Source: Prosthecobacter sp.
GTDB lineage: Bacteria; Verrucomicrobiota; Verrucomicrobiia; Verrucomicrobiales; Verrucomicrobiaceae
NCBI RefSeq assembly: GCF_034366625.1
Contig: NZ_JAXMIH010000006.1
Location: 372,001 to 436,000 of the forward strand
DNA: 64,000 nucleotides
Direction: 5' to 3'
This document shows, one piece after another, positions 8,627-63,460 of this stretch. The notes beneath the pieces are model-generated. The model had not been told where the DNA came from. It did no database searches and saw nothing but the letters and a program-made list of their open reading frames with translations. Position 1 is the stretch's first letter; every line of letters starts with the position of its first letter. Position numbers and translations under genes: made by a program.

Positions 8627-8678
8627 GGAAGCTGATTTCAGCCGGAGAAGGGCTTTCAGGCAAGCACCTTTCCCGTCC

Positions 8679-8706
8679 TTGCATCCGGCCCGCTTGCTCG
8701 TAGTAT
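8679..8706 (+). promoter_or_regulatory. candidate sigma-70-like promoter for asd
   Basis: TTGCAT at 8679-8684 and TAGTAT at 8701-8706 are separated by 16 bases, 37 bases upstream of the asd start, in the divergent gap with the macrodomain gene. This is a match by eye to the consensus only; in GC-rich DNA such matches arise by chance. Confidence 0.35.
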
Positions 8707-8743
8707 CGCGGCCCTTTTTCACCCCAAAACTCGTTAGAATACC

Positions 8744-9769
8744 ATGAGCACCCTCAAGAACGTCGCCATCGTCGGAGCCACCGGCGCTGTGGGCGCGGAG
8801 ATGATCCGTTGCCTCGAACAGCGCCAGTTCCCCGTCGGCCAGCTTACCCTCCTCGCCTCCGCACGCAGCGCCGGGAAAAAGCTGAAGTTCAAGGGCCAGG
8901 ACATCACGATCCAGGAGCTGACGCCGGATTCGTTCAAGGGCATCGACATCGCGCTGTTCAGCGCCGGCGGCGACATCTCGCGCGACTTTGCCCCGCATGC
9001 CGTGAAGGCCGGTGCCGTGGTGGTGGACAACTCCTCCGCCTTCCGCATGGACCCGGACGTGCCGCTCGTGGTGCCGGAGATCAATGCCGCCGACGTGAAG
9101 GGGCACAAAGGCATCCTCGCGAACCCGAACTGCACTACCGCGATCTCGCTGATGGCGTTGTATCCGCTGCATCAGGCCTTCGGCGTGAAGCGCATCTTTG
9201 CCTCCAGCTACCAGGCCGTGTCCGGCACCGGTGCGCAGGCGATCGAAGAGCTGGCGAACCAGTCCCGCGAGTGGGCATCTCAAAACCGAGCCTGGGACGC
9301 GGCGAAGCTCGACAGCAAGCCGCACGTCTATCCGCACCAGATCGCCTTCAATGCGATCCCGCAGGTCGATTCGTTCCTCGACTCCGGTTACACGAAGGAA
9401 GAGATGAAGATGGAGAACGAAGGCCGCAAGATCATGCACCACGACAAGTTCCGCGCTTCCGTGACCTGCGTGCGCATCCCGGTCTTCCGTGCTCACAGCA
9501 TCGCCATCAGCGCCGAGTTTGAAAAGCCCGTCACGGTCGAAGCCGCGCGTGAAGTGCTCAGCAAGGCTCCCGGCCTCGACGTCCTCGACGATGTGGCGAA
9601 CAAGGTCTATCCGCTGGCGCTCGACATCGCCGGCCGCGACAACTGCGCCGTGGGCCGCCTCCGCATGGACTGCGCCCTCGACAATGGTCTGTCCTTCTGG
9701 GTCGTCGGTGATCAGCTCCTCAAAGGAGCGGCGCTCAATGCGGTGCAAATCGCGGAGTGTCTGCTGTAG
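8744..9769 (+). CDS. asd: aspartate-semialdehyde dehydrogenase
   Basis: A 341-residue protein catalysing NADPH-dependent reduction of aspartyl phosphate to aspartate semialdehyde, the branch point to lysine/diaminopimelate, threonine and methionine. The nucleotide-binding GATGAVG is at 11-17, the nucleophile is Cys130 in ANPNCTT, and [10 protein letters not shown] follows at the substrate site. PHQIAFN and [10 protein letters not shown] are conserved family segments. The length is normal. It stands alone between divergent and convergent genes, so it is probably monocistronic. Diaminopimelate supply links it loosely to the neighbouring L,D-transpeptidase. Confidence 0.97.
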
Positions 9770-9798
9770 CCATGAGATTTCCCAGGTAAGCAGACTGG

Positions 9799-10557
9799 TC
9801 AGCGTGCAGGCGCAGGTGGCAGGATGCCTGCGGCAGGCTTGTTCCAGTGCAGCTTCAGCAGCTTTGAGACATCGCTGCTTTGCGCGGCGGGCGGCACATG
9901 CTGGTAGCAGAAGGAGATGAGCAGGTTGTCGAGTGGGGAGAGCTTGAGGTCGAAGGTGTTGTTGCCGCCGAAGGTGGAGTCGTGGAACTGCGGGCTGTTT
10001 TTCATGAAGCCGAACCCGGCCAGCAGGTTGTGAAACAGCACATGCTGCTGAAACTCCTCGGTTTGGTCCGGGCTGTCTTTGAGAAACACCAGCGCCTCCT
10101 TCAGGCTGTGATCCTTGTCCTGCCAGAACATGCAGCCGTCCTTGCCGACCATCTTGAGCTGCCGCCGTTTGGCGATGTCCAGCGCGGTAAAATCACGCGA
10201 AGTGCCGACGAAGACATGCAGAACGCCGTCGCCCGGCGTGTTCAGACCGGTGGCCTGGGTGATGCTGGCAAAACTGCTCTCCACAAAGCCCTTCAAGGCG
10301 GGTGAGGTGGCGGTGACCTCCAGCCGCGGCAGTGCCAGCCAGCGGGTGGTTTTGTTCTGGCGGCCGCACAAGACGATGTCGCGCACAAATTTGTCCACCT
10401 GCTGCGTGGGGGTCTGGTAGTCGAGGGTTGGTGCCAGGGCAGGGGATGACTGCGCGTCACGCGCACGGCGATCTGCGGCAGGCTGCCGTTCCCCGATGTC
10501 CTGCGCCGAAGCATGGGCTGTAAGACACATGGCTGCGAGAGTGGTGATGGCTTTCAT
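9799..10557 (-). CDS. secreted DUF2927-like protein
   Basis: A 252-residue protein with signal peptide [19 protein letters not shown]. The body has the pattern of DUF2927: a predicted beta-alpha start ([18 protein letters not shown]), a central GCMFW, a helical [15 protein letters not shown] region in place of the usual metallopeptidase-like helix, then DSTF and [18 protein letters not shown], which matches the DUF2927 ending (DS-F, L-LD-LL--LY-P). The function of the family is unknown. It is the last gene of the minus-strand series with two FecR proteins and a CHASE2 cyclase, 40 bases after FecR-1, so a shared envelope-sensing role is plausible but inferred. Confidence 0.6.
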
Positions 10558-48475: not shown

Positions 48476-50086
48476 ATGCTAACGATCCGCGACGTCACCA
48501 AGACCTTCAATGCACGCACGCTTTTCAGCGCCGCGTCGATGACCATCAACTATGGCGAGCGCGTGGCGCTGGTGGGGCCGAACGGCGCGGGCAAATCGAC
48601 CTTGTTCTCGCTGATCCTCAAAACGGACACGCCGGACGCCGGGGAAATCATCCGCGATGAGTGGACGACCGTCGGCTATCTGCCGCAGGAGAGCGAACCC
48701 GTCGGCGAGGAGACCGTGCTGGAGGTGGCGACGGGGAAGGCGGGCGAGATTGAGGCGCTGGAGAAGATTCTGCGTGAGTTTGAAGCCGCTGGCGATGTGG
48801 CCGGCCCGGAATACTTCGAGGCGCATGCCAAGCATGATGCTCTGGAGAACCCGCAGGCCGAGGCGAAGGCGAAACGCATCCTCAAGGGCCTGGGCTACAA
48901 GGAAGATGACTTCAACCGCAAGGCGCGCGAGTTCAGCGGCGGCTGGGTGATGCGTGCGCACATGGCGCGACTGCTGGTGATGGAGCCGGACCTGCTGCTG
49001 CTCGATGAACCGACGAACCACCTCGACCTGATCGCGCTCATGTGGTTCCGCAATTATTTGAAGAACTACCCCGGTGCGATCCTCATGATTTCGCATGACC
49101 GTGATTTCATGGATGAGCTGGTGCAGCAGGTCTATGAGATCGACGAAGGCCGCTTCATCGCCTACCAAGGCAACTACAGCGAGCATCTGGAACAGCGTGA
49201 GGCGAACTGGGAGCGCGCGAATCAGTCGTACAAGAACCAGCAGAAGGAGATCGAGCAGATCCAGGAGTTCATCGACCGCTTCCGCTCCGTGGCATCCAAG
49301 GCGTCGCAGGCGCAGAGCCGTGAGAAGCAGCTCGCGAAGATGGACAAGCTCGACAAGCCGCGGCCCCTGCGGAAACCCTTCCGCTTCAATTTCCCGCAGC
49401 CGCAGCGCAGCGGACAGCGCCTGATCGCGCTGACGGACATCCATCAGGCCTACGGCACGAAGCAGGTCTATCGCGGCCTTGACCTCGAAATCGAGCGTGG
49501 CGAGCGCACGGTGCTGGTGGGGCCGAATGGCTCGGGCAAATCGACACTGATCAAGATTCTGGCCGGCGAAGTGCCGTTTCAGAAGGGCGAGCGCAAACTG
49601 GGCACCAATGTGAAGCTCGGCTACTTCTCGCAGCATCGCGCGGACACGCTGGATCCCGATTGCAGCGTGCTGGAGGAGCTGAAACGCGTCGCGCCGGAAA
49701 TCCGCGAGGATGAAGCGCGCAGCATTCTCGGCTCCTTCCTCTTCAAGCGTGAGGACGTGCATAAAAAATGCCGCGTGCTCAGCGGTGGCGAGAAGAGCCG
49801 CGTGAACCTGGTCAAATTCCTCGTCGATCCGCCGAACCTGCTGCTGATGGACGAACCGACGACGCATCTCGACATCTGGGCCATCGAAGGCCTGATCCTC
49901 GCGCTGCAAAAGTTCGAGGGCACACTCGTCTTCATCTCCCATGACGTGCATTTCATCCGCTCATTGGCGACGAAGGTCCTGCACATCACCGAAGGCAAGG
50001 TGACCACCTACTCAGGCGATTACGACTACTACCTGCAAAAAACCGGCGCGGAGGAGAATGCGCGCGCGGCGGTGATTGCGGGGTGA
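48476..50086 (+). CDS. ABC-F ATPase (Uup/YbiT-like)
   Basis: A 536-residue soluble protein with two ABC domains and no membrane segment. Walker A: GPNGAGKST and GPNGSGKST; Walker B: LLLLDEPTNHLD and LLLMDEPTTHLD; signature: FSGGW and LSGGEKS. The linker (about 240-310) is charged, as expected of ABC-F proteins that act at the ribosomal E site. Family members rescue translation or give resistance to ribosome-targeting antibiotics; which applies is unknown. The final 106 bases are repeated, with a frameshift, at 54631-54737. Confidence 0.93.
   Translation: MLTIRDVTKTFNARTLFSAASMTINYGERVALVGPNGAGKSTLFSLILKTDTPDAGEIIRDEWTTVGYLPQESEPVGEETVLEVATGKAGEIEALEKILREFEAAGDVAGPEYFEAHAKHDALENPQAEAKAKRILKGLGYKEDDFNRKAREFSGGWVMRAHMARLLVMEPDLLLLDEPTNHLDLIALMWFRNYLKNYPGAILMISHDRDFMDELVQQVYEIDEGRFIAYQGNYSEHLEQREANWERANQSYKNQQKEIEQIQEFIDRFRSVASKASQAQSREKQLAKMDKLDKPRPLRKPFRFNFPQPQRSGQRLIALTDIHQAYGTKQVYRGLDLEIERGERTVLVGPNGSGKSTLIKILAGEVPFQKGERKLGTNVKLGYFSQHRADTLDPDCSVLEELKRVAPEIREDEARSILGSFLFKREDVHKKCRVLSGGEKSRVNLVKFLVDPPNLLLMDEPTTHLDIWAIEGLILALQKFEGTLVFISHDVHFIRSLATKVLHITEGKVTTYSGDYDYYLQKTGAEENARAAVIAG
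49981..50086 (+). repeat. ABC-F 3' end, original copy of a 106/107-bp direct repeat
   Basis: This stretch from GCACATCACC to the TGA stop of the ABC-F gene matches 54631-54737 with about six substitutions and one inserted base. Homology begins sharply at the sequence CTGCAC and ends at the stop. Confidence 0.85.
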
Positions 50087-50194: not shown

Positions 50195-51211
50195 CTACTT
50201 GTTCAATCGTCGCTGAATCTCGCTCAGGATTTCCTTGGCTGAGGATGCAACCTCCTGCTGCGGGTCATTGCTCAATGCTCCCAGCAGTTCTTGAGTTTCC
50301 GCAGAGGGATGATTCAATAAAGCCCCGATGGCAGCCACTCGGGTGCGCACATTGGTGGCAAACTTGCTGTTGCCTCTTGCCGCTGTGTGCAGGCTTGGCT
50401 CAGCAACGGGATTTCGAATGCCCGCTATCTGCTCGGCGATGATGCCGCCAGCGGCATCGCTCTGCTCGGAGTTCAGCCGTTCGATCAGGGCATCCACAGC
50501 CGGTGCGGTGCCCATCTGCCGCAATGCCTGGGCGCTTGCGCGGATCATGCCGTCTGTTGTCGGCATCGTGGTGTCCATCACCACAAATTTGAGAGCCGGC
50601 AGCGCTTCCTCGTTGGAGATGGTGGCGACCGTTCTTTCCAGGCGGTCACGCAAGGCGGGGTCAGTCGAGTTATCATGCATGTCCAGGATGGACTGCATGG
50701 TTTCGGTAGTCGCTAGTTTGGAAAAAATCTCCTGGCACATGCGGATCACACCCGCGTCTGCGGAAGATTGGAGCAGTTTCAAGGCAGCAGGCACGGCGGC
50801 GGGGTTGCTGATGGCAGAGGCGAGACGAACAACTTGTTCACGAATGGCTCCTGGAGGGAGGCCCGCGATTAAAGCGGCGAGTTCGTGTAGCGCCTCTGGC
50901 GTGCCTTGGGCAGCCAGCCTTTGTGCAGCTTCCAGCGTGGTTGTTTCCTGGCCTGAACGCAATTGGAACCGCGCAGATGTAAACTCATCGCCAGTCTGTG
51001 CCATGGGCATGATGGGGTGCCGTCTTTCTTTGGTTGCCGGGCTGGCTTTTGAAGTCGAATTCACCCTGTCCAGGTGCGTTGTTAATTCGTGGTCGTTGGA
51101 TGAGAATCCGAAAAGGTAGATGGCATAGACGCCCCCGAGGCTAAGCAAAGACGCAACCGTTGCGGTTGACCTAGCGGAAAATTTCTTTTCGCGATCCGTT
51201 GGCATCGACAT
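50195..51211 (-). CDS. membrane-anchored helical (HEAT-like) repeat protein, downstream copy
   Basis: A protein of about 338 residues; ATG 51211 (MSMPTDREKKF) is chosen, with a TTG two codons earlier. A single N-terminal transmembrane helix (about 17-33, TVASLLSLGGVYAIYLFGF) precedes a linker and repeated helices: LEAAQRLAAQGTPEALHEL, REQVVRLASAISNPAAVPAALKLL, LRDRLERTVATISNEEALPALK and PSLHTAARGNSKFATNVRTRV. The pattern resembles 33820-34635. It lies 67 bases after the neighbouring helical-repeat gene and forms the end of the lipase operon. No catalytic motif is visible. Confidence 0.75.
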   Translation of the reverse strand: MSMPTDREKKFSARSTATVASLLSLGGVYAIYLFGFSSNDHELTTHLDRVNSTSKASPATKERRHPIMPMAQTGDEFTSARFQLRSGQETTTLEAAQRLAAQGTPEALHELAALIAGLPPGAIREQVVRLASAISNPAAVPAALKLLQSSADAGVIRMCQEIFSKLATTETMQSILDMHDNSTDPALRDRLERTVATISNEEALPALKFVVMDTTMPTTDGMIRASAQALRQMGTAPAVDALIERLNSEQSDAAGGIIAEQIAGIRNPVAEPSLHTAARGNSKFATNVRTRVAAIGALLNHPSAETQELLGALSNDPQQEVASSAKEILSEIQRRLNK

Positions 51212-51278
51212 AAACAAGAGATTGCAAACTGGAAAATCTACCTTTGGTGCTTCTCAACTTCTTTGAGCGCTCTCGCTC

Positions 51279-52457
51279 TCATTGGTCAACCAGGGGCCTG
51301 AGATTCTCGCTTCGCTGGGCGAGCCAAGTAGCGAGAGTGTTTGAAAGGGCGGCTCTGTTTTGAGGGTTCGCAAAACTATCTGTCTTGAGCAGCGCATCCA
51401 CCAACTTTACTGATTGTTCGTCGCGCATTTGTGAAAACCATGTTTCAACGTGTGGAGTCAGATCATTTGCATTTGCTTGGACGTATTTCAATAAGACTGC
51501 GGTAGCTTGGGGATCTCCCATCTTCGCTAGACTATAACCGGCAGCAGAACTCGTGATGGAGTCTATGGCGCCAGCCCACAGCTCGCCCTCCATGTATGAC
51601 GATGCGTCAGGGTTAGACACATGCTCCAAACTCGAGAAGGCCACCCATGCTCTTTCCCCCGCATTTTTCTCAAACTCGCTGACCGTCAATCCACCCTGTT
51701 CGATTTCGGCAAAAAGTAAGTCGAACGCCTTGTCTGATCCGACTGAGGCCAGGGCGAACCCCAAGGTGGGCAGGACGTCAGGCTGCGAGGTTTCCTGCCA
51801 CGCTTTGGTGAGCAAATCCGTGAATTCCTCGTGAAAATGTCCTGACCAGTTGTTTTGCGATGCCTGCGCAATCTGATCCAAAAGCCAGCCCCTAGGTTCA
51901 GGTTGATTTGTGGACGCAAGCAAAGACAGAAGTGTCCCAACTGTTTCTCGGGTTGCTGCCTGTCCTAAAATCTGTGCAGCCTGCCAGCGAGCAAAAGGGA
52001 TGTTGCTTGCGTCCATGAAGACCTCCCGAACCTGCTGGAGTACCGCGGTTAAATTGCCGGTGGGATCACGCAGCTTCATCGCAAGGGCGTTGGCGATGAA
52101 ATCCAGTTTCAGCGGATCATCTGCGGCTTTGAAAGCCTCGCGCCACAAGGCCAGCAAATCATTCGCTGACTTAGCGTGCATATTAGCGGCGTATTCCATG
52201 CGGATTGCGACCGGTTGTTGCGCCAGAGCCCCGCTGTTCGGTGCAAAGGTGGCTGGAGGCGGCGGCGCAGAAGTATATTTGGGGATCTGCCGGTTAGGAG
52301 ATGGTGCCGACTTTGACCGGGTATTTCGGGCGGCAATTTCAACTCCATTTAGTTTCTTCGTGGAAGCATCAACTGCCAGATGAACCCAAAGGCCCACGCC
52401 GAGAATGGCAGTTAATAAACAACTTCCAACGAGAACCCGATGTGTCCTAGCGCTCAT
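51279..52457 (-). CDS. membrane-anchored helical (HEAT-like) repeat protein, coupled to lipase
   Basis: A 392-residue protein. The ATG at 52457 shares one base with the lipase stop (TAATG), so translation is coupled. Residues 8-28 form one transmembrane helix (VLVGSCLLTAILGVGLWVHLA), then a Pro-rich linker (SAPPPPATFAP, about 60-85) and a helical array (NDLLALWREAFKAADDPLKLD, ARWQAAQILGQAATRETVGTLL, AVLLKYVQANANDLTPH). The layout (N-anchor, Pro-rich linker, helical domain) and position directly after a lipase recall lipase-specific foldases, though I see no family signature. Confidence 0.75.
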   Translation of the reverse strand: MSARTHRVLVGSCLLTAILGVGLWVHLAVDASTKKLNGVEIAARNTRSKSAPSPNRQIPKYTSAPPPPATFAPNSGALAQQPVAIRMEYAANMHAKSANDLLALWREAFKAADDPLKLDFIANALAMKLRDPTGNLTAVLQQVREVFMDASNIPFARWQAAQILGQAATRETVGTLLSLLASTNQPEPRGWLLDQIAQASQNNWSGHFHEEFTDLLTKAWQETSQPDVLPTLGFALASVGSDKAFDLLFAEIEQGGLTVSEFEKNAGERAWVAFSSLEHVSNPDASSYMEGELWAGAIDSITSSAAGYSLAKMGDPQATAVLLKYVQANANDLTPHVETWFSQMRDEQSVKLVDALLKTDSFANPQNRAALSNTLATWLAQRSENLRPLVDQ

Positions 52458-54556
52458 TAATTCCACCAGTTGACCAAGCCTTTCATGGCAGTGCGGATGT
52501 CGATCTTCTGCTCCGGCTCTTTGGTGTGCAAGATCCCTTGGGTGTTGGCGAAAGGGGTGACAGAAATGCCACTGCCTGAAAACGTCTGGCTAGCGAAGGG
52601 AACGATACCATCTCCACGGTTGGCAGCGATTGACGTGCCGCTGACGATGTAATTTCGTGCTGCGTCTGTCAATGCGCTAAAGGTATAGGGCCCAGCGCCG
52701 CCTCCGAAGAACACAGAAACAAATCCCGACTGAACGCCGGTGGGTTCATTATGAACCACTCCAAAGGCCTGCCCATCGAATTGGACAGTCCCGTATTTGA
52801 TTCCCACTGGCAGGTTGCCGGTGCCTTGGGCGAGAAGATCGATTGGAGACGGCGGATTAGGAAGTCCTGGACCTGACGCGAGGTCGCCAATTGTTGGTCT
52901 GCGCACATCCAAACTATTCTTATAGGCACCATAACCAGCAGCGCCACGGAGTTCATCCACGAGTCTCCAGTCATTCGAAGTTGTACGCGGGTTGTCTTTG
53001 AGGAATTGGTAGATGCGCCCGAGGGGGCTGCCCAAGTGCGGGGTGCCTACAGTCAGGAGACCCGCTACCGCATTACGTTCAGCAGAGGAAGCGGCACCTT
53101 GGAGGAATGATCTTCCCGCGATGCCTCCGCGGCTATGACCCACCAGGAGAATTTTGGCATTGGCAAAGCTGGTTCGAATATTAGCAATCGCATCTCTGAC
53201 TTCGTCGGCGTGGTTAGTGAAAGAACTGAAATCTCCACTTTCTCCTTGGGAGGAGGTTGAGACAACATTTTCCAAACCCGTCCGGCCGGGATTGCGATCA
53301 TACTGGCCGAACTTGACCCGGTAATAACGAACTCCTTTGTTGTCTGGAGTCGCCGGTTGGGGAGGGAAACCTTGACCTTGTATCACACCCGCATAGATCG
53401 TGGGCACACTGGGGACGATATAAGGAGCATAATTGAAGTAAGCCGGGTCACTGATGAAGCTATTCCAAGTGAATGGGTCGCTGTTCATTCCATGAAGCAG
53501 CAGCACCACAGGGGTTTCTGTCGTGACCGTCAGCGAAATGCTGCCGCTGCTGCCACTGAATCCATCCACTGCAATCTGGTAAGCCACGCCTGCCGTCACG
53601 GCAATATTGATCTGACTGGTATTCGAGCTGCCAAAATCGTCATTGCTGCCCAACGGCACCGGCGTCAGCGCGGAGACTGCACTGCCCGTGTAAACCGCTA
53701 GCAGCGTGTCGAAGGAACTGCCTGCCGTGCTAATGGTTGCCCTACCACTGGCTGATGGCGTCCAGGTCCACCACACCGACCTGCCACCCGCATTGCTTGC
53801 GTGGCTCGGTTCCCCGCTCTCCTTGGTGGCGTTGGCGTTGCTCCCGCTCACTACGCCTCCGGCACTGGTGATCGTCATGCGGCTGCCAAAGTTGTTGTTG
53901 GCGGGACCGGATGGAATGCTGATGGTGTACGAGGTGGTGGCAACCCCGCTGTCGGTCATCCCGCTCTTGAACGCCCGCGCCTTGACCGTGGCTGAAGTGC
54001 TCAAGGGAAATGCGCCGACGTAAGCCGTTGAACCGGAGGTCGGGTCGCTGCCGTTGGTGGTGTAGCGGATGGTCGCGCCGCTGGTGGCGCTGCTCATCGA
54101 CACGGTCACCGCGCTCATCGTGCTTTGACTGCCGGGATTGATCACCGGCGTGGCCACTGCTGCCGCCGCAACGGGGCCGGTGTAGGCGGCCACCAGCGTC
54201 AGATTGGAGTAGGCCGCGTAGGCACGGACCAAAATGAACCAGTCGCCTGGGGAGGGGTTGTACATCGTCACGGTTTCCGTGTTGCTGCCGCTTTGGCCGG
54301 AGAGATCGTAGCTGGAGGTCGTTGGCAGCGCTCCACGCTTGACATAGAGATCCGCGTCACCGCTGCCGCCATAAGTTTTGACCTCCAGCTTGGTCTGGCC
54401 CGTGGGCACCGTGATGCGGTAAGTGCGCTGGCTGCTTGTGCTGCCACTCAGGCCGATGACCATTTGACCATTGTTGAGGGTTGTCTGCGAGAACCCGGAC
54501 GCTGTGAAGACAAGTGAAGCGATAGTCAGAATGACGGCAATAAACGTGTGTCTCAT
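52457..54556 (-). CDS. secreted lipase/alpha-beta hydrolase with PPC and CHB_HEX_C-type domains
   Basis: A 699-residue protein; ATG 54556 gives signal peptide MRHTFIAVILTIASLVFTA. Domains: a pre-peptidase C-terminal (PPC) domain at about 30-125 (YGGSGDADLYVKRG), a chitobiase/hexosaminidase C-terminal-type domain at 135-212 (ATIRYTTNGSDPTSG), a second PPC-like jelly-roll at 218-345 (VWWTWTPSASG, SNDDFGSSNTSQ), then the lipase from about 348: oxyanion HG at 355-356, Ser475 in GHSRGG and GTPHLGSPLG. It cleaves ester bonds outside the cell. AT content and codon use appear higher and less biased than in neighbours, suggesting recent arrival. Confidence 0.85.
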   Translation of the reverse strand: MRHTFIAVILTIASLVFTASGFSQTTLNNGQMVIGLSGSTSSQRTYRITVPTGQTKLEVKTYGGSGDADLYVKRGALPTTSSYDLSGQSGSNTETVTMYNPSPGDWFILVRAYAAYSNLTLVAAYTGPVAAAAVATPVINPGSQSTMSAVTVSMSSATSGATIRYTTNGSDPTSGSTAYVGAFPLSTSATVKARAFKSGMTDSGVATTSYTISIPSGPANNNFGSRMTITSAGGVVSGSNANATKESGEPSHASNAGGRSVWWTWTPSASGRATISTAGSSFDTLLAVYTGSAVSALTPVPLGSNDDFGSSNTSQINIAVTAGVAYQIAVDGFSGSSGSISLTVTTETPVVLLLHGMNSDPFTWNSFISDPAYFNYAPYIVPSVPTIYAGVIQGQGFPPQPATPDNKGVRYYRVKFGQYDRNPGRTGLENVVSTSSQGESGDFSSFTNHADEVRDAIANIRTSFANAKILLVGHSRGGIAGRSFLQGAASSAERNAVAGLLTVGTPHLGSPLGRIYQFLKDNPRTTSNDWRLVDELRGAAGYGAYKNSLDVRRPTIGDLASGPGLPNPPSPIDLLAQGTGNLPVGIKYGTVQFDGQAFGVVHNEPTGVQSGFVSVFFGGGAGPYTFSALTDAARNYIVSGTSIAANRGDGIVPFASQTFSGSGISVTPFANTQGILHTKEPEQKIDIRTAMKGLVNWWN

Positions 54557-54630
54557 TTTGTGATTCCTTTCATTCAAAATCAATATGTTCGATTAGAGGG
54601 CATAGGTGAAATAACGCAATTCTTTTTTCT

Positions 54631-54737
54631 GCACAGCACGGAAGGCAAGTGTGACCGCCTACTCGGGCGATTACGACTACTACCTGCAAAAAACCGGCGC
54701 GGAGGAGAATGCACGCGCGGCGGTGATCGCGGGGTGA
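54631..54737 (+). repeat. truncated, frameshifted copy of the ABC-F 3' end
   Basis: About 93% identical to 49981-50086, with an extra T after AAGGCAAG that breaks the reading frame. No part of the gene upstream of this is present, and the copy ends in the same TGA. Its position beyond the lipase operon makes the two copies direct repeats flanking about 4.5 kb. Confidence 0.85.
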
Positions 54738-54964: not shown

Positions 54965-55459
54965 TTATTTTTTAACCGGCTCCTCTATCTGAATCAGATA
55001 ATCTTCAAACCCAGTGCCCATGTGCACTGAGATAAGATATGTGGTTCTTCGCCAATTCGACCCATTGCGTTTAATTACACCCTCTCGTTTCCATCCATGA
55101 TCCACGTCCGATGCCTTGATCTTCTGCCATTCAGGTGAGTGCTGGAAAAAACTACCAATCAATCGCACATCTGTAGATGTGTCCTCAACGGTATTAAAAG
55201 TCACATTGACGCCCATCGCTTCTACTAACGCTTGATGAGTAGGCGCATCTATTTGCAGAACACAAGCATACGCACCCACCATTATTCCCTCGTAGGACTC
55301 CCAGTTGACGTTCTTCTGAAATTTGCTCCACCCAGCGCCAATAATCACAGATGAAGGAGGCGGCCCTTTGTCGTCAACGCACGCACTCAAGAGAGTAAAA
55401 AGCAGAAGCAGAAAGCTGCGGATCCAGCGGCAAAAAAGCCCTTTTGTTATCAATGTCAT
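54965..55459 (-). CDS. lipoprotein of unknown function
   Basis: A 164-residue protein. ATG 55459 gives a lipoprotein signal ending in LLSAC (Cys about residue 27), so it is likely acylated and membrane-anchored. The rest contains GIMVGAYACVLQIDAPTHQA and VRLIGSFFQHSPEWQKI. No family is recognised. Base composition is more AT-rich than the chromosome average here, like the neighbouring islet. It stands alone between the islet end and the small HTH gene, with a 145-base gap upstream holding nothing I could identify. Confidence 0.65.
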   Translation of the reverse strand: MTLITKGLFCRWIRSFLLLLFTLLSACVDDKGPPPSSVIIGAGWSKFQKNVNWESYEGIMVGAYACVLQIDAPTHQALVEAMGVNVTFNTVEDTSTDVRLIGSFFQHSPEWQKIKASDVDHGWKREGVIKRNGSNWRRTTYLISVHMGTGFEDYLIQIEEPVKK

Positions 55460-55604
55460 TAGATGTCTGTGGTTAGGGCTTGGGCCAACCTTGCTGCCAT
55501 TGAAGCTGGCCTGCTTTTGGACCAATGTAAAATCGGGCTAGCCAAGGTCCAGATTCGGAGGAAACGGTTCAAGCTGCAACTGCCTGACAAAAGGTCTGCA
55601 TTCA

Positions 55605-55845: not shown

Positions 55846-58800
55846 TTACTTCGGCGGCGTGGGGACGAGTTTGGCGGAGCGCTCGGCGGCTTCTTTGTCC
55901 TTGGGACGATAGCGCAGGTATTCGCGGGCGGCGGCGGGGGAACCCTGTTCCTTGAGTGCGCGGAGGTATTCCTCAAAGGGTTTGTCCTCCTGCGGTGAGA
56001 GCGGGCGTGTGGCGGCGGCGGCGAGCAGCCAGTTGGCCCAGCGCGCGGCGGCTTCTTCGTCCTTGGCGGGTGTTTTGGGAATGGCGGCGACGGCGGCCTC
56101 GTAATCCGCCAACGTCAGCTCCTCGGTTCTGCCATCGGGTGTCAGGCGGCGGCGGGCGAGGCTCTCCGCGAGTTTGAGGAACCATTCGGGAAGCGGCGCG
56201 CCTTTCGGCGGCATGGGCGCGCTGAAAAAGCCGTGGCCGGAGACACGGAACAGAACGCTCTGCCCGTCCTCGGACACACGGGCGACCACGATGCCTTCCT
56301 CCTCGCTGCTGCTGCGTGGCGTGTCGCGAATGGCCGGCGTGAGACAATCGCCGGTGCGCAGGTTCCACACGCGCAGCTCGCCTTCGTCGGTGACGGTGAC
56401 GAGGCGTTCGTCATCGGGACTGAGCGCCAGCACCGGCACGTAGGAGTCGTGACTCATGGTGACGATGTTTTGACGTGTGGCGATGTCCCACACACGCACC
56501 TCACGGTCACGACCGGAAGTGATGAGCAGCTTTTCGTCCTGGGTCAGAGTCACCGCACCGACCGCCGGCGGATGCTGGAAGGGCGCGCCGATGGGCTTGA
56601 GCGTTTTGGCATCGTAGATGAACACCGTGCCGTCAGGATCGGCGGCGGCGTACATGGTCTTCTTGCGATTGGCGCCACCGGCCTCGGAATCGCGCAACTG
56701 CCGCGGCGAATTGTCCGGCCCTTTGATGCGGGTGATCAGATCCTTGTCGAGCACATCGACGAATTTGCGGCCCGACATGCGCTCGTGGATGTTCCAGACC
56801 TGCACGAAGGGGATGCCGCCGGGAGCGAGGGCGAGCATGGAGCCATCGCGCGTGATTCTGGCGTCGTTGACGGTCTGCTGGAGGCGTGTGGAGAGCACCG
56901 CGCCGGTCTGGACGTCAAACACGCTGACCTCACCATGCCGCGACACGCTGGCCACGAGACTGGTATCCGCAGCAGGCATGGCCCGGATGACTTCACCGTC
57001 ATGCTGGCGGGTGGGGAAACGCAGCTTGCCATCACTCAGATTCCAGATGTGAACGTAACCGCCGCCGTCGCCGACGATGATGGATTTAGCATCCGCGCTG
57101 AAGGCCAGCGAGGTGACCGAGGACGGATGAGTGATCGGCGGAATGTGTTCACCACCATTGCGGAAGCTGCCGACAAAAACGGTGCCGTTGTTCATGCCCA
57201 ACGCGATGAGTTCTTGCTTGGGTTCGATGGCCACATGCAACAAACCTTTGTCCACCTCAATGGGATCACCAATGGCCTGCCCGAGACGGAGATCCCAGGT
57301 GGTGGCAGCGCCGTCGTCTCCTTCGGGATTGATGGGATCACCGCTGTAAATGGAGGCGGCGAAGATGCCGTCATCATCCACCGCGATCTCACTCACCACG
57401 CCTTTCTGCTTCATCACGAGGGCGGGTTCCTGCGGCTTGCGCAAATCCCAGAGGTGGATGTGGCCCATGCCGTCCGTGTCGATCTCACTGCCCGCGAGGA
57501 GTTTGGTGCCGTTGCCAGAGAAGGCGATGCAGGTGACGATATTCGGCAAACGCGGCTGGAGATTGCGGCGCTTGCCGTCCTTGAGCGACCAGAGCTCCAC
57601 ATTGCCATCATCACGCGCGATCACGGCCTGCTGGCCGTCGGGTGTGACATCCAGGCAGGTGATCTCGACACCGGGAGGGACCGGATGATCGGTACGCTCA
57701 CCGGTTTTCATGTTCCAGGTGGAGAGGATTTCACGCATCGACACGGTCTGCCCCGGCGCGGGCATGACTTTGGGCGCGATGCGGCAGACGGCCAGCGCCA
57801 CACCCGTCTCGCGGCTGATGGCCACTTTGGACGCCTCATTGGCGCCTTCGGGCAGCGCCAGAGGCGCGGTGTCAGGACGGATGAGATGCACGTTCGCCAG
57901 CAACGAGAGCAGATTCGTGGAGGCAAGATCGTTGGCTGGATTGGTGCGCAGAGAGCGGACCAGATAGGCAACAGCATCATTGTACTGGCCGCGCTCCGTG
58001 AACTGGCGGGCCATCTGCTCGTCGGAGCGGCTGTAGGATTTGATCAGGTTCGTCCGCCCAAGCTCGGCTTCGATGCGGTTGCGTTCCGCCTTGAAATACA
58101 TCGCGGTGCTGGTGATGCCGCCGATCAGGACAGCGAGCGAGATGGCGATGGCAGCTGCGACACCGACACGATGACGGCGCACGAACTTCGTGATCAGGTA
58201 ACGCCTGCTCGGCGGACGTGCGGTGATCGGTTCGAAGCTCAGGTAGCGCGTGATGTCGTCGGCGAGATCGTCCGCGCTGCCGTAGCGACGGTTGGGGTCA
58301 CGCTCGAGCGCCTTGAGCGCGATCCAGTCGAGATCACCCTGAACGGAAGGCTCGATGGTGGAAGGCTTGGGCGGGTCTTTCTCCGCCAGATCACGCAGCA
58401 GGACGTGGATCGGCTTCTGCGCGATGTCCGAAGGCGTGATGAGCGCCCTGCCACAGAGCAGTTCAAAAAAGACGCCGCCCAGCGCATAGACGTCGGAGCG
58501 TGTGTCCACATGCGAGCTGCCGTTCTCGATTTGCTCCGGGCTGATGTATCCCGGCGTGCCGACGAGTTGATCGACGCCCGTGGCGATGGTATGGCCGGAG
58601 CCTTCGCCTTCGAGAACCTTCGCGATGCCGAAGTCGATGACCTTGGGCACCGCCTTGCCGGCCTCGTCCATCACCATGATGTTGCCGGGCTTGATGTCGC
58701 GGTGGATGATGCCCTTCTGATGCGCGTGATTCACCGCACGGCAGACGGGAATGAACAGCGCCAGGCGCTGGCGCAGATCGAGATCGTTTTGTTTGCAGTA

Positions 58801-59565
58801 GCTGGTGATGGAGCGCCCCTTCACCATCTCCATCACGAAATAGGGCGCGCCGATGTCCGTTTCACCCGCATCGAGAATGCGCGCAATGTTCGGATGCTCC
58901 ATGATGGCGAGCGTCCGCTGCTCGATGGCGAAACGGCCCAGGATGTCCGCCGAAGCCACGCCCGCCTTCACAATCTTGATCGCCACGATGCGGTGAATCG
59001 GTTTCACCTGCTCCGCGCGATAAACGACACCGAAGCCGCCCTCGCCCAGTTTATCGAGCAGACGGTAGCGGTCGCCGATCCAGCCGTCATTGCCGGTGAG
59101 CGACTCCATGTGCGATCTGGGCTTCGAAGTGCTGCCCATGGAAGCCATCGAGCTTCCAGTGGCGGCCGGCAGACCACCGTGACTCGGCATCGTCGCCGCG
59201 CCAGGCATCGTCGGCTGCTTGTTCGTCGGAATGGCGATCGTCATGTCCTCCGGGCCGAGGGTGATGTTCCCCGTGTCCGCAAGCGAGCGCGGCTGGCTCG
59301 AACCCATCGTCGCCGCAGGCAGCGAGCGGCTGGGATTTGGAATGGCAATGGTCTGGTCTTCCGGCCCCAGCGTGACATTCCCCGTGCTCAACTCCGTGTC
59401 AGGCACCGGTGCTGCCGGTGATTTGGCCGGTGGCACGCTGCTCTTCAGGCTCGGCACCGCGATCGTCATATCTTCCGGCCCAAGCGTGACATTTCCCGTG
59501 TCGAACGACTGCGGTTCCTTGGGATCAGCGGGTGAGGGGGAATCCGGATTGGGTTTCACAGGCAA
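55846..59565 (-). CDS. membrane Ser/Thr protein kinase with WD40 propellers and threefold N-terminal motif
   Basis: A 1239-residue protein. No ATG fits; a TTG at 59565 (or GTG two codons on) is used. The N-terminal 155 residues are disordered and carry TGNVTLGPEDMTIAIP-type motifs at 22-38, 60-76 and 97-113. The kinase domain (about 166-440) is complete: GEGGFGVV 174-181, Lys197, HRD 288-290, DFG 311-313, SPE 342-344. One transmembrane helix (about 485-510) separates it from an extracytoplasmic WD40 part with two or more propellers (TVSLSAD-type blades, e.g. VTSLAFSADAKSIIVGDGGG). The C-terminal 130 residues are helical. It is probably an envelope sensor; substrates are unknown. Confidence 0.9.
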   Translation of the reverse strand: MPVKPNPDSPSPADPKEPQSFDTGNVTLGPEDMTIAVPSLKSSVPPAKSPAAPVPDTELSTGNVTLGPEDQTIAIPNPSRSLPAATMGSSQPRSLADTGNITLGPEDMTIAIPTNKQPTMPGAATMPSHGGLPAATGSSMASMGSTSKPRSHMESLTGNDGWIGDRYRLLDKLGEGGFGVVYRAEQVKPIHRIVAIKIVKAGVASADILGRFAIEQRTLAIMEHPNIARILDAGETDIGAPYFVMEMVKGRSITSYCKQNDLDLRQRLALFIPVCRAVNHAHQKGIIHRDIKPGNIMVMDEAGKAVPKVIDFGIAKVLEGEGSGHTIATGVDQLVGTPGYISPEQIENGSSHVDTRSDVYALGGVFFELLCGRALITPSDIAQKPIHVLLRDLAEKDPPKPSTIEPSVQGDLDWIALKALERDPNRRYGSADDLADDITRYLSFEPITARPPSRRYLITKFVRRHRVGVAAAIAISLAVLIGGITSTAMYFKAERNRIEAELGRTNLIKSYSRSDEQMARQFTERGQYNDAVAYLVRSLRTNPANDLASTNLLSLLANVHLIRPDTAPLALPEGANEASKVAISRETGVALAVCRIAPKVMPAPGQTVSMREILSTWNMKTGERTDHPVPPGVEITCLDVTPDGQQAVIARDDGNVELWSLKDGKRRNLQPRLPNIVTCIAFSGNGTKLLAGSEIDTDGMGHIHLWDLRKPQEPALVMKQKGVVSEIAVDDDGIFAASIYSGDPINPEGDDGAATTWDLRLGQAIGDPIEVDKGLLHVAIEPKQELIALGMNNGTVFVGSFRNGGEHIPPITHPSSVTSLAFSADAKSIIVGDGGGYVHIWNLSDGKLRFPTRQHDGEVIRAMPAADTSLVASVSRHGEVSVFDVQTGAVLSTRLQQTVNDARITRDGSMLALAPGGIPFVQVWNIHERMSGRKFVDVLDKDLITRIKGPDNSPRQLRDSEAGGANRKKTMYAAADPDGTVFIYDAKTLKPIGAPFQHPPAVGAVTLTQDEKLLITSGRDREVRVWDIATRQNIVTMSHDSYVPVLALSPDDERLVTVTDEGELRVWNLRTGDCLTPAIRDTPRSSSEEEGIVVARVSEDGQSVLFRVSGHGFFSAPMPPKGAPLPEWFLKLAESLARRRLTPDGRTEELTLADYEAAVAAIPKTPAKDEEAAARWANWLLAAAATRPLSPQEDKPFEEYLRALKEQGSPAAAREYLRYRPKDKEAAERSAKLVPTPPK

Positions 59566-59677: not shown

Positions 59678-62600
59678 TCAGCCACCCGGCGGAATGCCCG
59701 CCAGTCGTTTTTTCTTGATGGCATCAAGGTAGGGACCGCCGGTGTAACTTCGCATCTGCTGTGCGTCTGGACCGAGAATGGCCTCCCAAGTCAGCAATTG
59801 CTCCATCGAAAACTGTTCGAGTACATCCCGCAACGCCTCACCGTGCAGTTCCACCACCTGGTTGGAGCCGCCGCCGTTGGCCGCCTCGCGAATCCTCACC
59901 AAGCCACAGTCGGTCTGGAGTTTTTCGTCACGCTTTTTGATCCACGCCTCCTGCTCTTTGGACAATTGCAGAGCCACCTTGATGTCAGTGGCGATGACTT
60001 TCACGATGGACACCCCTCTCCGCGCACGATCTTTGGCAGACTCGGGCATGCTGGTGAGCGGGAATGCTTTGGCGGCGGCTGCCAGCCGACTCACTGCCGG
60101 GTCGGCCTTGGCCGAAGATGTCGAGTTTACAGGCTGAACTGTCGAAACACTGCCGCCAGCAGGGGGTGAGACGGTGCTTGTGGCAGGCTGCGCAGTGGTG
60201 GCAATTGATGACTGGCCTTCAGCCAACACGCACCTGAAACCGTAGGTTGCAATGTGGCAATCAGGCCGGTTGCTACTGCGGCTGGAGGACAGCGGCGGCT
60301 CGCGGTCGAGTGCACAGCAGCCACCACGCAAAACCCGAGCCTGCATGGATGGATGAGGGTGATCCTGGCACCACTCCCATGCGTTTCCGCCCATGTCATA
60401 GAGGCCCAGCGCGTTGGGCTTGAAACTCATCACCGGCGCAGTCCAGGAGTAGCCGTCATTCACGATGCTGGCGACGTAATTTCCATCCTGTGGCGTCGGC
60501 GGATAGTACCCTCCCCATGGATACACACCCTCGATCTTCCCAGACTTATCTTGGGGACTGCCCTTCGGGGTTTCCTGCGCTTCCCTTTCGCCAATGCCCA
60601 CCGCGTAGCTCCATTCCTCATCGGTGGGAAGCCGGTAGGCGTGTCCTTCCTTCTTGCTCAACCATGCGCAGAACCCATTCGCATCCTCCCAGCTCACTCG
60701 CACTACCGGTTGCTGCTCCTGGTCGTCACCCTTCTTCCAACTGGTGTCCACATTGGCGGCGCTGGCCGCATAAGCGGCGTAGTCCGCCTTCCGTGTCTCA
60801 TGAATGCAGAACAACACCTTGATTCCTGGCACCGGCACGAACTTCATGCCGAGAGTGTTCACGAAGGGCTTGTCCTTGGTGGCTGAGAGCAATGGCGACT
60901 CCGTGGATGACGACTGGCTGGTGGTTGTGACCACCGCCTGGGATGTCTTGAACACGGCCATCATCTGCTGCCGATAGGTTTCCACCGTCTTCGCGGCGTT
61001 GGCATTCGCGGCGGTTGTCAGCGAGGCATGCACACTGGCGAGAGACTGGTCCAGGCTGGTGACGAGGGTTATTTCGATCTTGGCAGTCTCGCGCACGAAG
61101 ATGTCGCGCAACTCCTTGAGGCGTGGCGGTGCCGGATCTTTCAGAGCCGGGAGTGCAGGAAGAGGCACGACTGCTGTGGCGCTCAAATTTTTCTCGATCA
61201 CCGCTACGAACGCCGTGGCGTGGGCGATGGCGGCATCCGCAGCAGCAGCCTCGGTCAGCACGCCGCTTTTGACCGCCGCATCCTTCGCAGTGACTAGTGC
61301 GGCACGGTATTTCGTGGTCAGATCACTGAGCTGCGCATAACGTGCCTTCTGGTAGTTGGCGACGCGGGTGCGGAAATCGGGGAGCTGCTGAAGATCGAAA
61401 GCGGGCGCGGAAACGATGGTCGCTGGAGTGGGCGCGGCAGATGTGGCGGTCGGTGGCGTGGGAGTGGTAGGAGCGACCACACAACGAAAACCGACATCGC
61501 TGAGGTGGTAAGCGGGCTGGAAGTCACGCCGCCATGATGACAACAGTCCGATGCGGCTACCTTCTTGCCACGATGCACCGCGGACCACACGAGAGGTGCT
61601 TTCGATGTCAAAAATATCTTCACACCACTCCCAGACGTTTCCACCAATGTCATACAAACCGAACCGGTTGATCGCAAAGCTGCCCACGGGCGCCGTCGCC
61701 GGAAACCCATCCCTATAGCCGGGCACCGCTGTCATATTTTTGTTCAACTCTGATTCGATAATCTCTTCGCCCCTGTAATTGCCCGCTCCATCAGGCGGCG
61801 GCCATGCGCCGTCCCATGGAAACACTTCGGGGATAACGCCTTTCCCATTCACTGTTTTCCACGTCCCTTTTTCTTTCGGCCTTCTTGCCACGTTTTCCTG
61901 CCCGCCGATGCCCACGGCACAACTCCACTCATGATCCGTCGGCAGCCGGTAACTCTCCGCTGTACCGAGCCGTCCAGCTTTGTGCTCGCGATCCGTGAGC
62001 CACACACAGAACGCTTGTGCATTGTCCCAACTCACCGCCACCATCGGATGCATTGGTCCCTGCTCAAATTTCACATTCACTCGTGCGAGCTTGGTCTCCT
62101 GCATGAACACCTCGTAGTCCTGCACGCGAGTCTCCCACACGCTGAAAAGCACGCGTTGCTTATCCGTCGGCCCACCAGTGATCGGCACGGGCAAGAACTT
62201 CATCCCGAGGCTGTTCAGGAAGGGCGGCTCCTTCGTGGCGGAGATAGTGCCGCTGCTTTGGGGAAGTGTGCTGGCAACCGCCGGACTGGAGCTGGCTACG
62301 GGCGCGATTTCGGGCGATGGGACGCCGCTGCCGCCTGAATCCTTGAGGAACAGCCACCCTGCAACACCGCCTATCGCAATCAGCGCCGCCCACAACAATG
62401 GGGAGCTGTTCTTTGCGGTGCGAACGACGATTTGAGGCTGCTGCGGACGATACGGCTGCCCGCCGGGATGTTGGGGGCGCGCTTGCGTGGGCAATGCGGC
62501 AGGAGCTTGCTTGGCGTTTTCCTCCACTTTCACCACTGGCTGCGTCAGGATGCTGTCGAGATTCTGCCGCATCTCCAGCACACTCTGGTAGCGCATCTCA

Positions 62601-63391
62601 CGGTCATCCCGCAGCGCTTTGGCAATGATCCCGTCGTAGCGCGGGTCGAGGCCCGGCACCTGCAGCGAGGGCAGCTCAAACATGCCCTGCGGCAGCTTGC
62701 CAGTGAGCATTTGATACAGCATGACGCCCACCGCATAAATATCGGCGCGGTGATCCACGCCAGTGCCGAGCATGAGGGCTTCCGGAGCCATGTAGCACAA
62801 CGTGCCCATTGCCATGCCGCTCTGGGTCAGGCCGCTTTCCCCGCTCTGGGTCATCTTCGCCAGACCGAAGTCCGCCACCTTCACCACGCCGTCATAGCCG
62901 ACCATGATGTTCGCCGGTTTGATGTCGCGATGGATGATACCGCGTTCATGCGCGTAGGCCAGCGCGTCGCATACATGCGCGGTGATCGCCATGGCATGGT
63001 CCGTGTGCAGGCGCTTCTGCTGGGCGATCATGCGCGAGACATCCGTGCCCTCAACGAACTCCATCACGATGTAGAGCAGCCCGCTCGCCGTCTGGCCGAA
63101 ATCATATACCGCGACGATGCCGGGGTGGGTGAGCTTTGCCATGGCGCGCGCCTCGTTCTTGAAGCGCTCCGCAAAGCTGGTGTCGGCCTCATCGAGCGTG
63201 TTGGAAAGAATCTTAATGGCGACAGGACGGTCCAGCGAGATCTGGCGCCCCTTGTACACCGCCCCCATGCCGCCACGACCCAGCAACATCTCGATTTCAT
63301 ACTGCGGCAGCATCGCCGCAAGCTCCTGTGCCGTCGGCGGCTGCCAGGAGGCGGATGACCGCGTGGCAGGAGGATTCGAGTCGTGACTCAT
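59678..63391 (-). CDS. membrane Ser/Thr protein kinase with two FGE-sulfatase-like domains
   Basis: A 1237-residue protein from ATG 63391 (MSHDSNPPATRSS). Kinase (about 30-300): GRGGMGAV 38-45, Lys60, HRD 154-156, DFG 174-176, APE 202-204. A transmembrane helix follows at about 335-358. Two FGE-sulfatase-like domains follow (about 400-650 and 830-1060), each with LGMKF, YRLPTDxEWS and GLYDxGGNxWEWCxD. The Cys pair needed for FGE chemistry is absent in both (RGASWQEGSRIGLL; RGGCCALDREPPLS), so they are probably binding modules. The C-terminal region is helical and unassigned. Confidence 0.9.
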   Translation of the reverse strand: MSHDSNPPATRSSASWQPPTAQELAAMLPQYEIEMLLGRGGMGAVYKGRQISLDRPVAIKILSNTLDEADTSFAERFKNEARAMAKLTHPGIVAVYDFGQTASGLLYIVMEFVEGTDVSRMIAQQKRLHTDHAMAITAHVCDALAYAHERGIIHRDIKPANIMVGYDGVVKVADFGLAKMTQSGESGLTQSGMAMGTLCYMAPEALMLGTGVDHRADIYAVGVMLYQMLTGKLPQGMFELPSLQVPGLDPRYDGIIAKALRDDREMRYQSVLEMRQNLDSILTQPVVKVEENAKQAPAALPTQARPQHPGGQPYRPQQPQIVVRTAKNSSPLLWAALIAIGGVAGWLFLKDSGGSGVPSPEIAPVASSSPAVASTLPQSSGTISATKEPPFLNSLGMKFLPVPITGGPTDKQRVLFSVWETRVQDYEVFMQETKLARVNVKFEQGPMHPMVAVSWDNAQAFCVWLTDREHKAGRLGTAESYRLPTDHEWSCAVGIGGQENVARRPKEKGTWKTVNGKGVIPEVFPWDGAWPPPDGAGNYRGEEIIESELNKNMTAVPGYRDGFPATAPVGSFAINRFGLYDIGGNVWEWCEDIFDIESTSRVVRGASWQEGSRIGLLSSWRRDFQPAYHLSDVGFRCVVAPTTPTPPTATSAAPTPATIVSAPAFDLQQLPDFRTRVANYQKARYAQLSDLTTKYRAALVTAKDAAVKSGVLTEAAAADAAIAHATAFVAVIEKNLSATAVVPLPALPALKDPAPPRLKELRDIFVRETAKIEITLVTSLDQSLASVHASLTTAANANAAKTVETYRQQMMAVFKTSQAVVTTTSQSSSTESPLLSATKDKPFVNTLGMKFVPVPGIKVLFCIHETRKADYAAYAASAANVDTSWKKGDDQEQQPVVRVSWEDANGFCAWLSKKEGHAYRLPTDEEWSYAVGIGEREAQETPKGSPQDKSGKIEGVYPWGGYYPPTPQDGNYVASIVNDGYSWTAPVMSFKPNALGLYDMGGNAWEWCQDHPHPSMQARVLRGGCCALDREPPLSSSRSSNRPDCHIATYGFRCVLAEGQSSIATTAQPATSTVSPPAGGSVSTVQPVNSTSSAKADPAVSRLAAAAKAFPLTSMPESAKDRARRGVSIVKVIATDIKVALQLSKEQEAWIKKRDEKLQTDCGLVRIREAANGGGSNQVVELHGEALRDVLEQFSMEQLLTWEAILGPDAQQMRSYTGGPYLDAIKKKRLAGIPPGG

Positions 63392-63460
63392 GGCAGCAAA
63401 ATGGACAGGAGACGTGCCCTGACGCAAGCCCGCATTTGCAACTCTCCGCATGCAGCCCGC

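Follow-up and report, generated by a model that had tools for sequence, protein, structure and literature searches.

Recurrent pairing of HEAT-repeat genes with genes for predicted secreted modular proteins in Verrucomicrobiota suggests possible secretion partners

RESULTS

A lipase gene is followed by two HEAT-repeat genes in Prosthecobacter

We analyzed a 64,000-nucleotide (nt) stretch of the Prosthecobacter sp. genome (contig NZ_JAXMIH010000006.1 of assembly GCF_034366625.1, positions 372,001 to 436,000 of the forward strand; hereafter "the window," with positions counted from its first letter). It carries a block of three minus-strand genes that encode a predicted secreted lipase and two proteins with HEAT-repeat matches, designated HEAT1 and HEAT2. 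Genes of the HEAT2 type recur next to genes for predicted secreted modular proteins in distant genomes, and this pairing is well supported by comparison with control genes. An original prediction for this stretch had described a lipase with a GHSRGG motif, a TAATG overlap, and two downstream genes for helical proteins, all of which we recovered at the positions given there, on the minus strand. The features of the block are as follows.

52457 to 54556, minus strand: lipase, 699 residues, predicted to be secreted
Lipase residues 44 to 112: PPC domain (Pfam)
Lipase residues 146 to 207: CHB_HEX_C domain (Pfam)
Lipase residues about 215 to 345: third beta domain, a stretch that recurs in relatives
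Lipase residues about 346 to 699: alpha/beta-hydrolase domain (Pfam; PGAP1 above cut-off)
53918 to 54487, minus strand: PPC-CHB tandem module of the lipase (residues 24 to 213), whose closest relatives elsewhere have a HEAT gene downstream
53123 to 53140, minus strand: GHSRGG nucleophile motif (lipase residues 473 to 478)
51279 to 52457, minus strand: HEAT1, 392 residues; predicted N-terminal anchor, Pro-rich linker, and HEAT-like helical domain
50195 to 51211, minus strand: HEAT2, 338 residues; predicted N-terminal anchor, disordered linker, and HEAT solenoid (residues 73 to 337)

The genes run in the order lipase, HEAT1, HEAT2. The lipase stop codon and the HEAT1 start codon share the sequence TAATG, and a gap of 67 nt separates HEAT1 from HEAT2. 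As judged by eye, the lipase begins with a signal peptide-like N terminus. Among solved structures, those nearest to its hydrolase domain were 1qge_D (E = 5e-4), which is a triacylglycerol hydrolase, and 9g8u_A (E = 1e-3), which is a lactonizing lipase; lipases of this kind depend on a lipase-specific foldase (Lif). A plasmid search with the lipase domain gave no match.

HEAT1 and HEAT2 match the HEAT_2 family and are predicted to be anchored

Both downstream proteins matched the HEAT_2 profile (PF13646), HEAT1 with 32.3 bits and HEAT2 with 45.7 bits against a gathering score of 27.7; the original statement that no family was known for them is therefore superseded. By hydropathy, each has one N-terminal hydrophobic segment, at residues 8 to 26 in HEAT1 (mean Kyte-Doolittle value, 1.99) and at residues 18 to 36 in HEAT2 (1.64); no later 19-mer of either protein exceeded 1.14. 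These segments are predicted membrane anchors, and because each follows a positively charged start, the remainder of each protein is suggested to face the periplasm. HEAT1 also shows a lipobox pattern at residues 10 to 13, but a position so close to the N terminus makes a true lipobox unlikely. Seven prolines fall within the 45 residues that follow the anchor of HEAT1, and three within those of HEAT2. Thus, of the layout proposed originally, the single N-terminal segment held for both proteins and the Pro-rich linker for HEAT1, whereas the linker of HEAT2 is hardly Pro-rich.

In an AlphaFold2 model built from three sequences, HEAT2 formed 16 helices across residues 73 to 337, with a predicted local distance difference test (pLDDT) score of at least 90 in 217 of its 338 residues. 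Residues 1 to 77 scored below 50, and with the first helix at residue 73 the modeled linker spans about 36 residues. Fold searches with HEAT2 (Foldseek, VIA) gave 4zv6, 4xl5, and 4d4z as the best rows, all of them generic HEAT folds.

HEAT2 relatives lie downstream of predicted secreted modular proteins

Outside the window, we identified 24 loci of the HEAT2 type: 5 in 68 genomes of the family and 19 in 387 genomes of the phylum, the latter found with a five-sequence HEAT profile and with at most five candidates scored per genome. Loci were picked by HEAT similarity alone. Two of them (L066 and L076), whose contigs break off at the HEAT gene, were left out, giving 22 informative loci. At all five family loci, the HEAT gene lay directly downstream of a gene for a predicted secreted modular protein (here, the client):

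L011: M6 peptidase with PPC/CHB arrays
L012: beta-propeller with PPC/CHB and a lipase-like end
L013: M23 and GH25 domains with PPC/CHB and a lipase-like end
L014: subtilase (S8) with Ig-like domains
L015: trypsin with PPC (PPC match scoring 25.6 bits, under the 25.9 cut-off)

As scored with Pfam, the upstream client contained a PPC, CHB_HEX_C, or CARDB domain at 13 of the 22 loci (L011, L012, L013, L015, L067, L068, L069, L070, L072, L075, L077, L078, and L079). Adding L014 and L071, 15 of 22 adjoin a secreted modular or hydrolase-fold protein, such that HEAT2 relatives are mostly found beside such a protein and not alone. With the window and two loci described below (L154 and L174), the paired loci number 18. 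In about 14 of these, the genes overlap or lie at most 100 nt apart, HEAT start positions being uncertain in L067, L077, and L078. Two HEAT genes in a row, as in the window, also occur at L174 and L079; at L079, the client precedes a first HEAT gene whose HEAT_2 match falls below the cut-off.

The clients are chemically diverse, comprising predicted secreted enzymes as well as adhesion-like proteins. A hydrolase domain is present at 8 of the 18 paired loci (the window, L011 to L015, L154, and L174). Among the 15 pairs from the HEAT search, it was recognized in five (L011 to L015) and is degenerate in L071. The lipase-like ends of the L012 and L013 clients fall below Pfam cut-offs and carry GHSWG. 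The L071 client (8288 to 10174, minus strand) is lipase-like, and its HEAT gene follows with a 4-nt overlap; because GHAWG replaces GxSxG and the Ser nucleophile is absent, this client is probably inactive. The clients of L067, L068, L069, L070 (cut by the contig end), L072, L075, L077, L078, and L079 have no known catalytic domain; their recognized modules are PPC/CHB, CARDB, or similar ones. Because the clients also include peptidases (M6, S8, trypsin, and M23) and PPC/CARDB proteins in which no catalytic domain is known, specificity of the partner for lipases was rejected.

The clients of L067, L072, L077, and L078 all end in a conserved sequence of about 130 residues, for which the L067 and L077 pieces searched gave no Pfam match. 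The HEAT proteins of L067, L072, and L077 carry additional N-terminal sequence that, by eye, is weakly suggestive of an STN domain, as known from secretins and TonB receptors (hhalign probability, 34%); a Pfam search of the L072 and L077 pieces with E values up to 10 yielded no match. Lipobox patterns were found in the HEAT proteins of L011, L014, L068, and L079 and, by eye, of L070 and L174. Judging from open reading frame (ORF) starts, genes resembling extracytoplasmic function (ECF) sigma factors lie near secreted proteins of the PPC or third-domain type at L012, L014, L015, L149, L150, and L153, and some of these neighborhoods also contain kinase-like genes.

In a tree of 24 HEAT proteins, the M6-paired HEATs of G004 and L174 grouped together (support, 99/99), as did two lipase-paired HEATs of G029 (96/96) and the HEATs of the PPC-CHB-only clients L067, L072, and L077 (100/99). 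HEAT2 of the window grouped with the L071 protein at a support of 91/87, short of the full threshold, and many of the deeper forks were left open. HEAT proteins are therefore partly grouped by client type, which suggests that pairs tend to stay together; this grouping fits recognition of the catalytic part and of the beta-sandwich part alike.

The pairing exceeds that of other HEAT_2 genes and is found again from the client side

Because the local domain profiles had been seeded from the window, L068, and L069, the association was tested with Pfam. Controls were 20 other HEAT_2 genes chosen by hand from a list of such genes, small proteins first; most of them encode longer proteins. For two of the 20, the stretch examined contained no gene upstream on the same strand, and for 6 of the remaining 18 the upstream gene was more than 500 nt away. 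None of these 18 had PPC, CHB, or CARDB domains encoded upstream (Fisher p = 8e-5 against the 13 of 22), and neither did any of the 12 whose upstream gene lay no more than 500 nt away (p = 6e-4). Local profiles applied to the nearest ORF on either strand likewise detected none in 20 controls. The loci are not independent by descent. Genus g73 contributes three of the paired loci, and genus g127 three of the unpaired ones. With each trio counted once, the comparison became 11 of 18 versus 0 of 12 (p = 6e-4); with g73 alone collapsed, the count was 11 of 20.

We also searched the 387 genomes with the PPC-CHB tandem of the lipase (residues 24 to 213), covering 24 of the 57 contigs listed outside the window (20 newly fetched plus 4). 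The five strongest places (E < 1e-28, window excluded; G123:C9, G120:C79, G375:C395, G074:C11, and G087:C17) all had a HEAT gene downstream. Four of them were known from the HEAT search; the fifth, L154, was new and encodes a client with an M23 domain, followed by a HEAT gene at 315 nt. A separate scan of genome contigs, of which the best 80 of at least 435 loci were kept, yielded two strong full-length tandems, L174 and L175. At L174, from a metagenome-assembled genome (MAG) labeled Akkermansia muciniphila, an M6 protein with nine PPC and eight CHB stretches is followed by two HEAT genes, as in the window. An association with CHB alone was not found, HEAT genes occurring at L174 only among those best 80 of at least 435 loci.

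Genes for T2SSG-type pseudopilins were present in all 15 genomes tested. At L080 (8791 to 10947, minus strand), the gene preceding that of a distantly related HEAT protein has a match to type II secretion system (T2SS) protein K of 24.2 bits, against a cut-off of 26.2. In the same genus, the HEAT genes of L074 and L083 had no preceding T2SS protein K match. Pilin-like genes lie further upstream at L080, as judged from ORF starts.

The block lies in an insertion next to an ABC-F gene

The block is flanked by the following features.

48476 to 50086, plus strand: resident ABC-F ATPase gene
50000 to 50086, plus strand: last 29 codons of the ABC-F gene (stop included), first copy of a direct repeat
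54629 to 54737, plus strand: second copy of the ABC-F 3' end (109 nt), with an 87-nt core (54651 to 54737) 95% identical to the first copy
50087 to about 55845: insertion relative to the closest sister species, holding the lipase/HEAT block and a 186-residue ORF
54965 to 55525, minus strand: lipoprotein-like ORF of 186 residues, GC content at third codon positions (GC3) 0.497

In the closest sister genome (G052; 92% identical over the ABC-F gene), only 13 nt separate the ABC-F stop codon from the end of a convergent kinase gene, which in the window lies at 55846 to 59565, next to the insertion. Because the sister ABC-F gene directly abuts this kinase gene, we regard the segment from 50087 to approximately 55845 as an insertion relative to the sister species. 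The GC content was 0.557 in the block, 0.525 in the rest of the insertion, and 0.607 in the window, and GC3 ranged from 0.55 to 0.65 in the three block genes versus 0.71 to 0.83 in five neighbors measured. The 186-residue ORF had no Pfam match over the cut-off. Of 29 further ABC-F loci, one per genome, 12 had the convergent kinase gene within about 1 kb and 17 had no kinase match in the stretch compared; nothing matching the lipase/HEAT block was detected at any of them. In the window, two large Ser/Thr kinase genes stand in tandem on the minus strand (55846 to 59565 and 59678 to 63451), one with WD40 repeats and the other with an FGE-sulfatase fusion, that is, a sulfatase-modifying factor-like domain.

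DISCUSSION

HEAT2-type proteins as candidate partners of secreted clients

Given this recurrent pairing, we propose, with slightly less than even confidence, that HEAT2-type proteins are anchored, client-specific partners in the periplasm that work like the T2SS chaperones Lif and CpaB but with an unrelated fold. HEAT2, and probably HEAT1, would be held in the membrane with the helical part in the periplasm, where they would bind the lipase once it had passed the inner membrane and keep it folded and ready for export. From there the lipase would be transferred, most probably to a machine of the type II secretion kind, while the HEAT proteins themselves would stay unsecreted. They would be adapted to clients built from PPC, CHB, and CARDB beta-sandwich modules and not to a single enzyme. 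We favor a chaperone or escort role because an anchor, a flexible linker, a helical binder, and a downstream gene together reproduce the anatomy described for LipB, CpaB, and LipH in the sources cited below. A binder of beta-sandwich proteins is also consistent with the clients in which no catalytic domain is known. The HEAT partner would probably help its clients to fold or to leave the cell. The argument is built on HEAT2 because HEAT1 has a single relative; the position of HEAT1 between lipase and HEAT2, its predicted anchor, and its family suggest that it probably shares the role.

A wider version of this proposal, possible but doubtful in our judgment, is that the anchored HEAT proteins across Verrucomicrobiota constitute a family of secretion partners not yet described, one that recognizes PPC/CHB/CARDB modules. 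Catalytic domains would be exchanged freely while the handshake between module and partner was kept, and the form with two HEAT genes would supply a pair of partners per client. Overall, what the original prediction observed is partly confirmed, and its interpretation is partly supported: a Lif-like layout recurs beside predicted secreted proteins in distant genomes, but the partners are not Lif.

Several results weigh against the proposal. No client of the kind described was present at 7 of the 22 informative loci (L065, L073, L074, L080, L081, L082, and L083), and when the four small controls were taken by themselves, the association was not significant (p = 0.1). From the client side, 19 of the 20 newly fetched PPC-CHB places lacked a HEAT gene; their matches were weaker or partial, but G312, G368, and G244 hold both PPC and CHB and still have no HEAT gene. 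The same is true of the tandem at L175, from a planctomycete MAG, and local HEAT profiles found nothing at 79 of the 80 scan loci (the best 80 of at least 435), L174 being the exception. An association with the third beta domain of the lipase (residues 215 to 345) was not found: none of 20 loci fetched for it matched the local HEAT profiles in any frame; 19 of these contain the third domain, and the other, L146, has CHB and CARDB instead and is likewise without HEAT. These absences are not firm, because at most five candidates per genome were scored, the best 80 of at least 435 scan loci were kept, and 24 of 57 contigs were covered. With regard to HEAT1, its AlphaFold2 model was poor (pLDDT, 52); the alpha-helical array originally proposed for both proteins was borne out in the model of HEAT2. 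The one relative of HEAT1 among the 68 family and 387 phylum genomes, in G002, has a divergently oriented secreted FG-GAP neighbor and no paired client. The T2SSG genes, sought in genomes with a pair, may reflect the phylum alone, and the lipoprotein-like HEAT proteins could sit in the outer membrane.

Alternative explanations

An anchored HEAT protein might instead protect the producer by keeping the hydrolase blocked in the periplasm before its export, in the manner of an inhibitor or immunity protein. Such a role, close to the neutralizing function suggested originally, would suit the 8 of 18 paired loci whose client carries a hydrolase potentially harmful to the producer (lipase, M6, S8, trypsin, M23, or GH25). 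HEAT-repeat immunity proteins are also known in polymorphic toxin systems, and a table of these in PMC3482391 lists verrucomicrobia among the phyla. There, however, Imm-HEAT goes with Tox-REase-7 and Ntox34 and is said not to be widely used across toxin types, whereas a single HEAT family here serves chemically unrelated enzymes. Inhibition or immunity is also made less likely by the HEAT genes kept beside clients in which no catalytic domain is known, and by the one kept beside the L071 client, which has GHAWG in place of a Ser nucleophile. We consider self-protection unlikely.

The HEAT protein could also act as a surface tether, docking the PPC/CHB/CARDB part so that the exported enzyme or adhesin stays bound to the cell. 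The pairing does track noncatalytic beta-sandwich modules better than any single enzyme, and the lipoprotein-like HEATs of L011, L014, L068, L079, L070, and L174 could reach the outer membrane. Yet the N-terminal hydrophobic helix is a plain one in the window pair and in others, a feature suggestive of the inner membrane, and one-domain clients such as that of L069 would need an outward-facing partner, for which we saw no evidence. A tether seems improbable to us.

Mere co-travel on mobile DNA or in operons, without joint function, is very unlikely: although the window block sits in a GC-poor insertion, the pairing is missing at seven of the 22 informative loci, and a single relative of HEAT1 was found across 387 phylum genomes, the pair recurs across genera with differing enzymes and flanks, its genes mostly overlap or nearly touch, and it was predicted from either side, by HEAT search and by client-module search.

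If HEAT2-type proteins are indeed chaperone-like partners, the consequences would be of some breadth. Only a few T2SS clients are known to have a dedicated export partner, as lipases do in Lif and CpaA does in CpaB, and the partners differ in fold. A family of partners that goes with one shared beta-sandwich module and acts on enzymes of several kinds would help to explain how bacteria export very large secreted proteins, gene order would offer a route to finding such clients, and the partners might be of use in making difficult lipases and proteases. In the open-licence literature, we found no paper that joins HEAT repeats with the pre-peptidase (PPC) domain, or with a foldase and type II secretion, which leaves novelty unproven.

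Comparison with known systems

Imm-HEAT proteins of polymorphic toxin systems are cytoplasmic and are not known to be anchored. They resemble the proteins described here in having HEAT repeats and being encoded beside a toxin gene, with Verrucomicrobia among the phyla listed, but differ in the toxins named with them in PMC3482391, Tox-REase-7 and Ntox34. The designed alphaRep binders and deoxyhypusine hydroxylase among the best fold-search rows (4zv6, 4xl5, and 4d4z) share the general HEAT-like fold with HEAT2; this likeness is generic for helical repeats and gives no functional hint. As to HEAT_2 itself, the profile match is found in both proteins and the solenoid of helix pairs in the HEAT2 model.

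Membership in Lif was considered and rejected, since neither HEAT1 nor HEAT2 matched PF03280 at E up to 1. The foldase motif RxxFDY(F/C)L(S/T)A, as stated in PMC13381987, was absent from HEAT1, HEAT2, and 18 related HEAT proteins. PF03280 had no match in the genome of the window at E up to 0.01 and one sub-threshold match among 15 genomes; the 14 control genomes gave none, so this search has no positive control. That Lif and CpaB are missing from the fold-search lists proves nothing.

In architecture, the resemblance to Lif (LipB/LipH) is closer: as PMC13381987 and PMC4713064 describe them, these foldases likewise have an N-terminal membrane helix, an unstructured linker, and a helical periplasmic domain, and their gene lies beside that of a secreted lipase. 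The N-terminal helix (by hydropathy) and an unstructured linker within the range of about 30 to 55 residues (about 36 in the HEAT2 model) are found here as well. Where HEAT2 has a solenoid, Lif has a pair of mini-domains with an extended helical domain between them, and it serves lipases, whereas HEAT clients include nonlipases. CpaB, the T2SS chaperone of the CpaA metallopeptidase, is likewise an anchored partner encoded beside a secreted hydrolase; in PMC4713064, it is reported to have an SRPBCC-type domain and one client is described, against HEAT repeats and several clients here. The same source places LipB and CpaB in one class, further members of which were sought by gene position and an N-terminal membrane helix. 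An effector-adjacent gene and a predicted N-terminal membrane helix are what we found in the window and at the paired loci, where client secretion is predicted.

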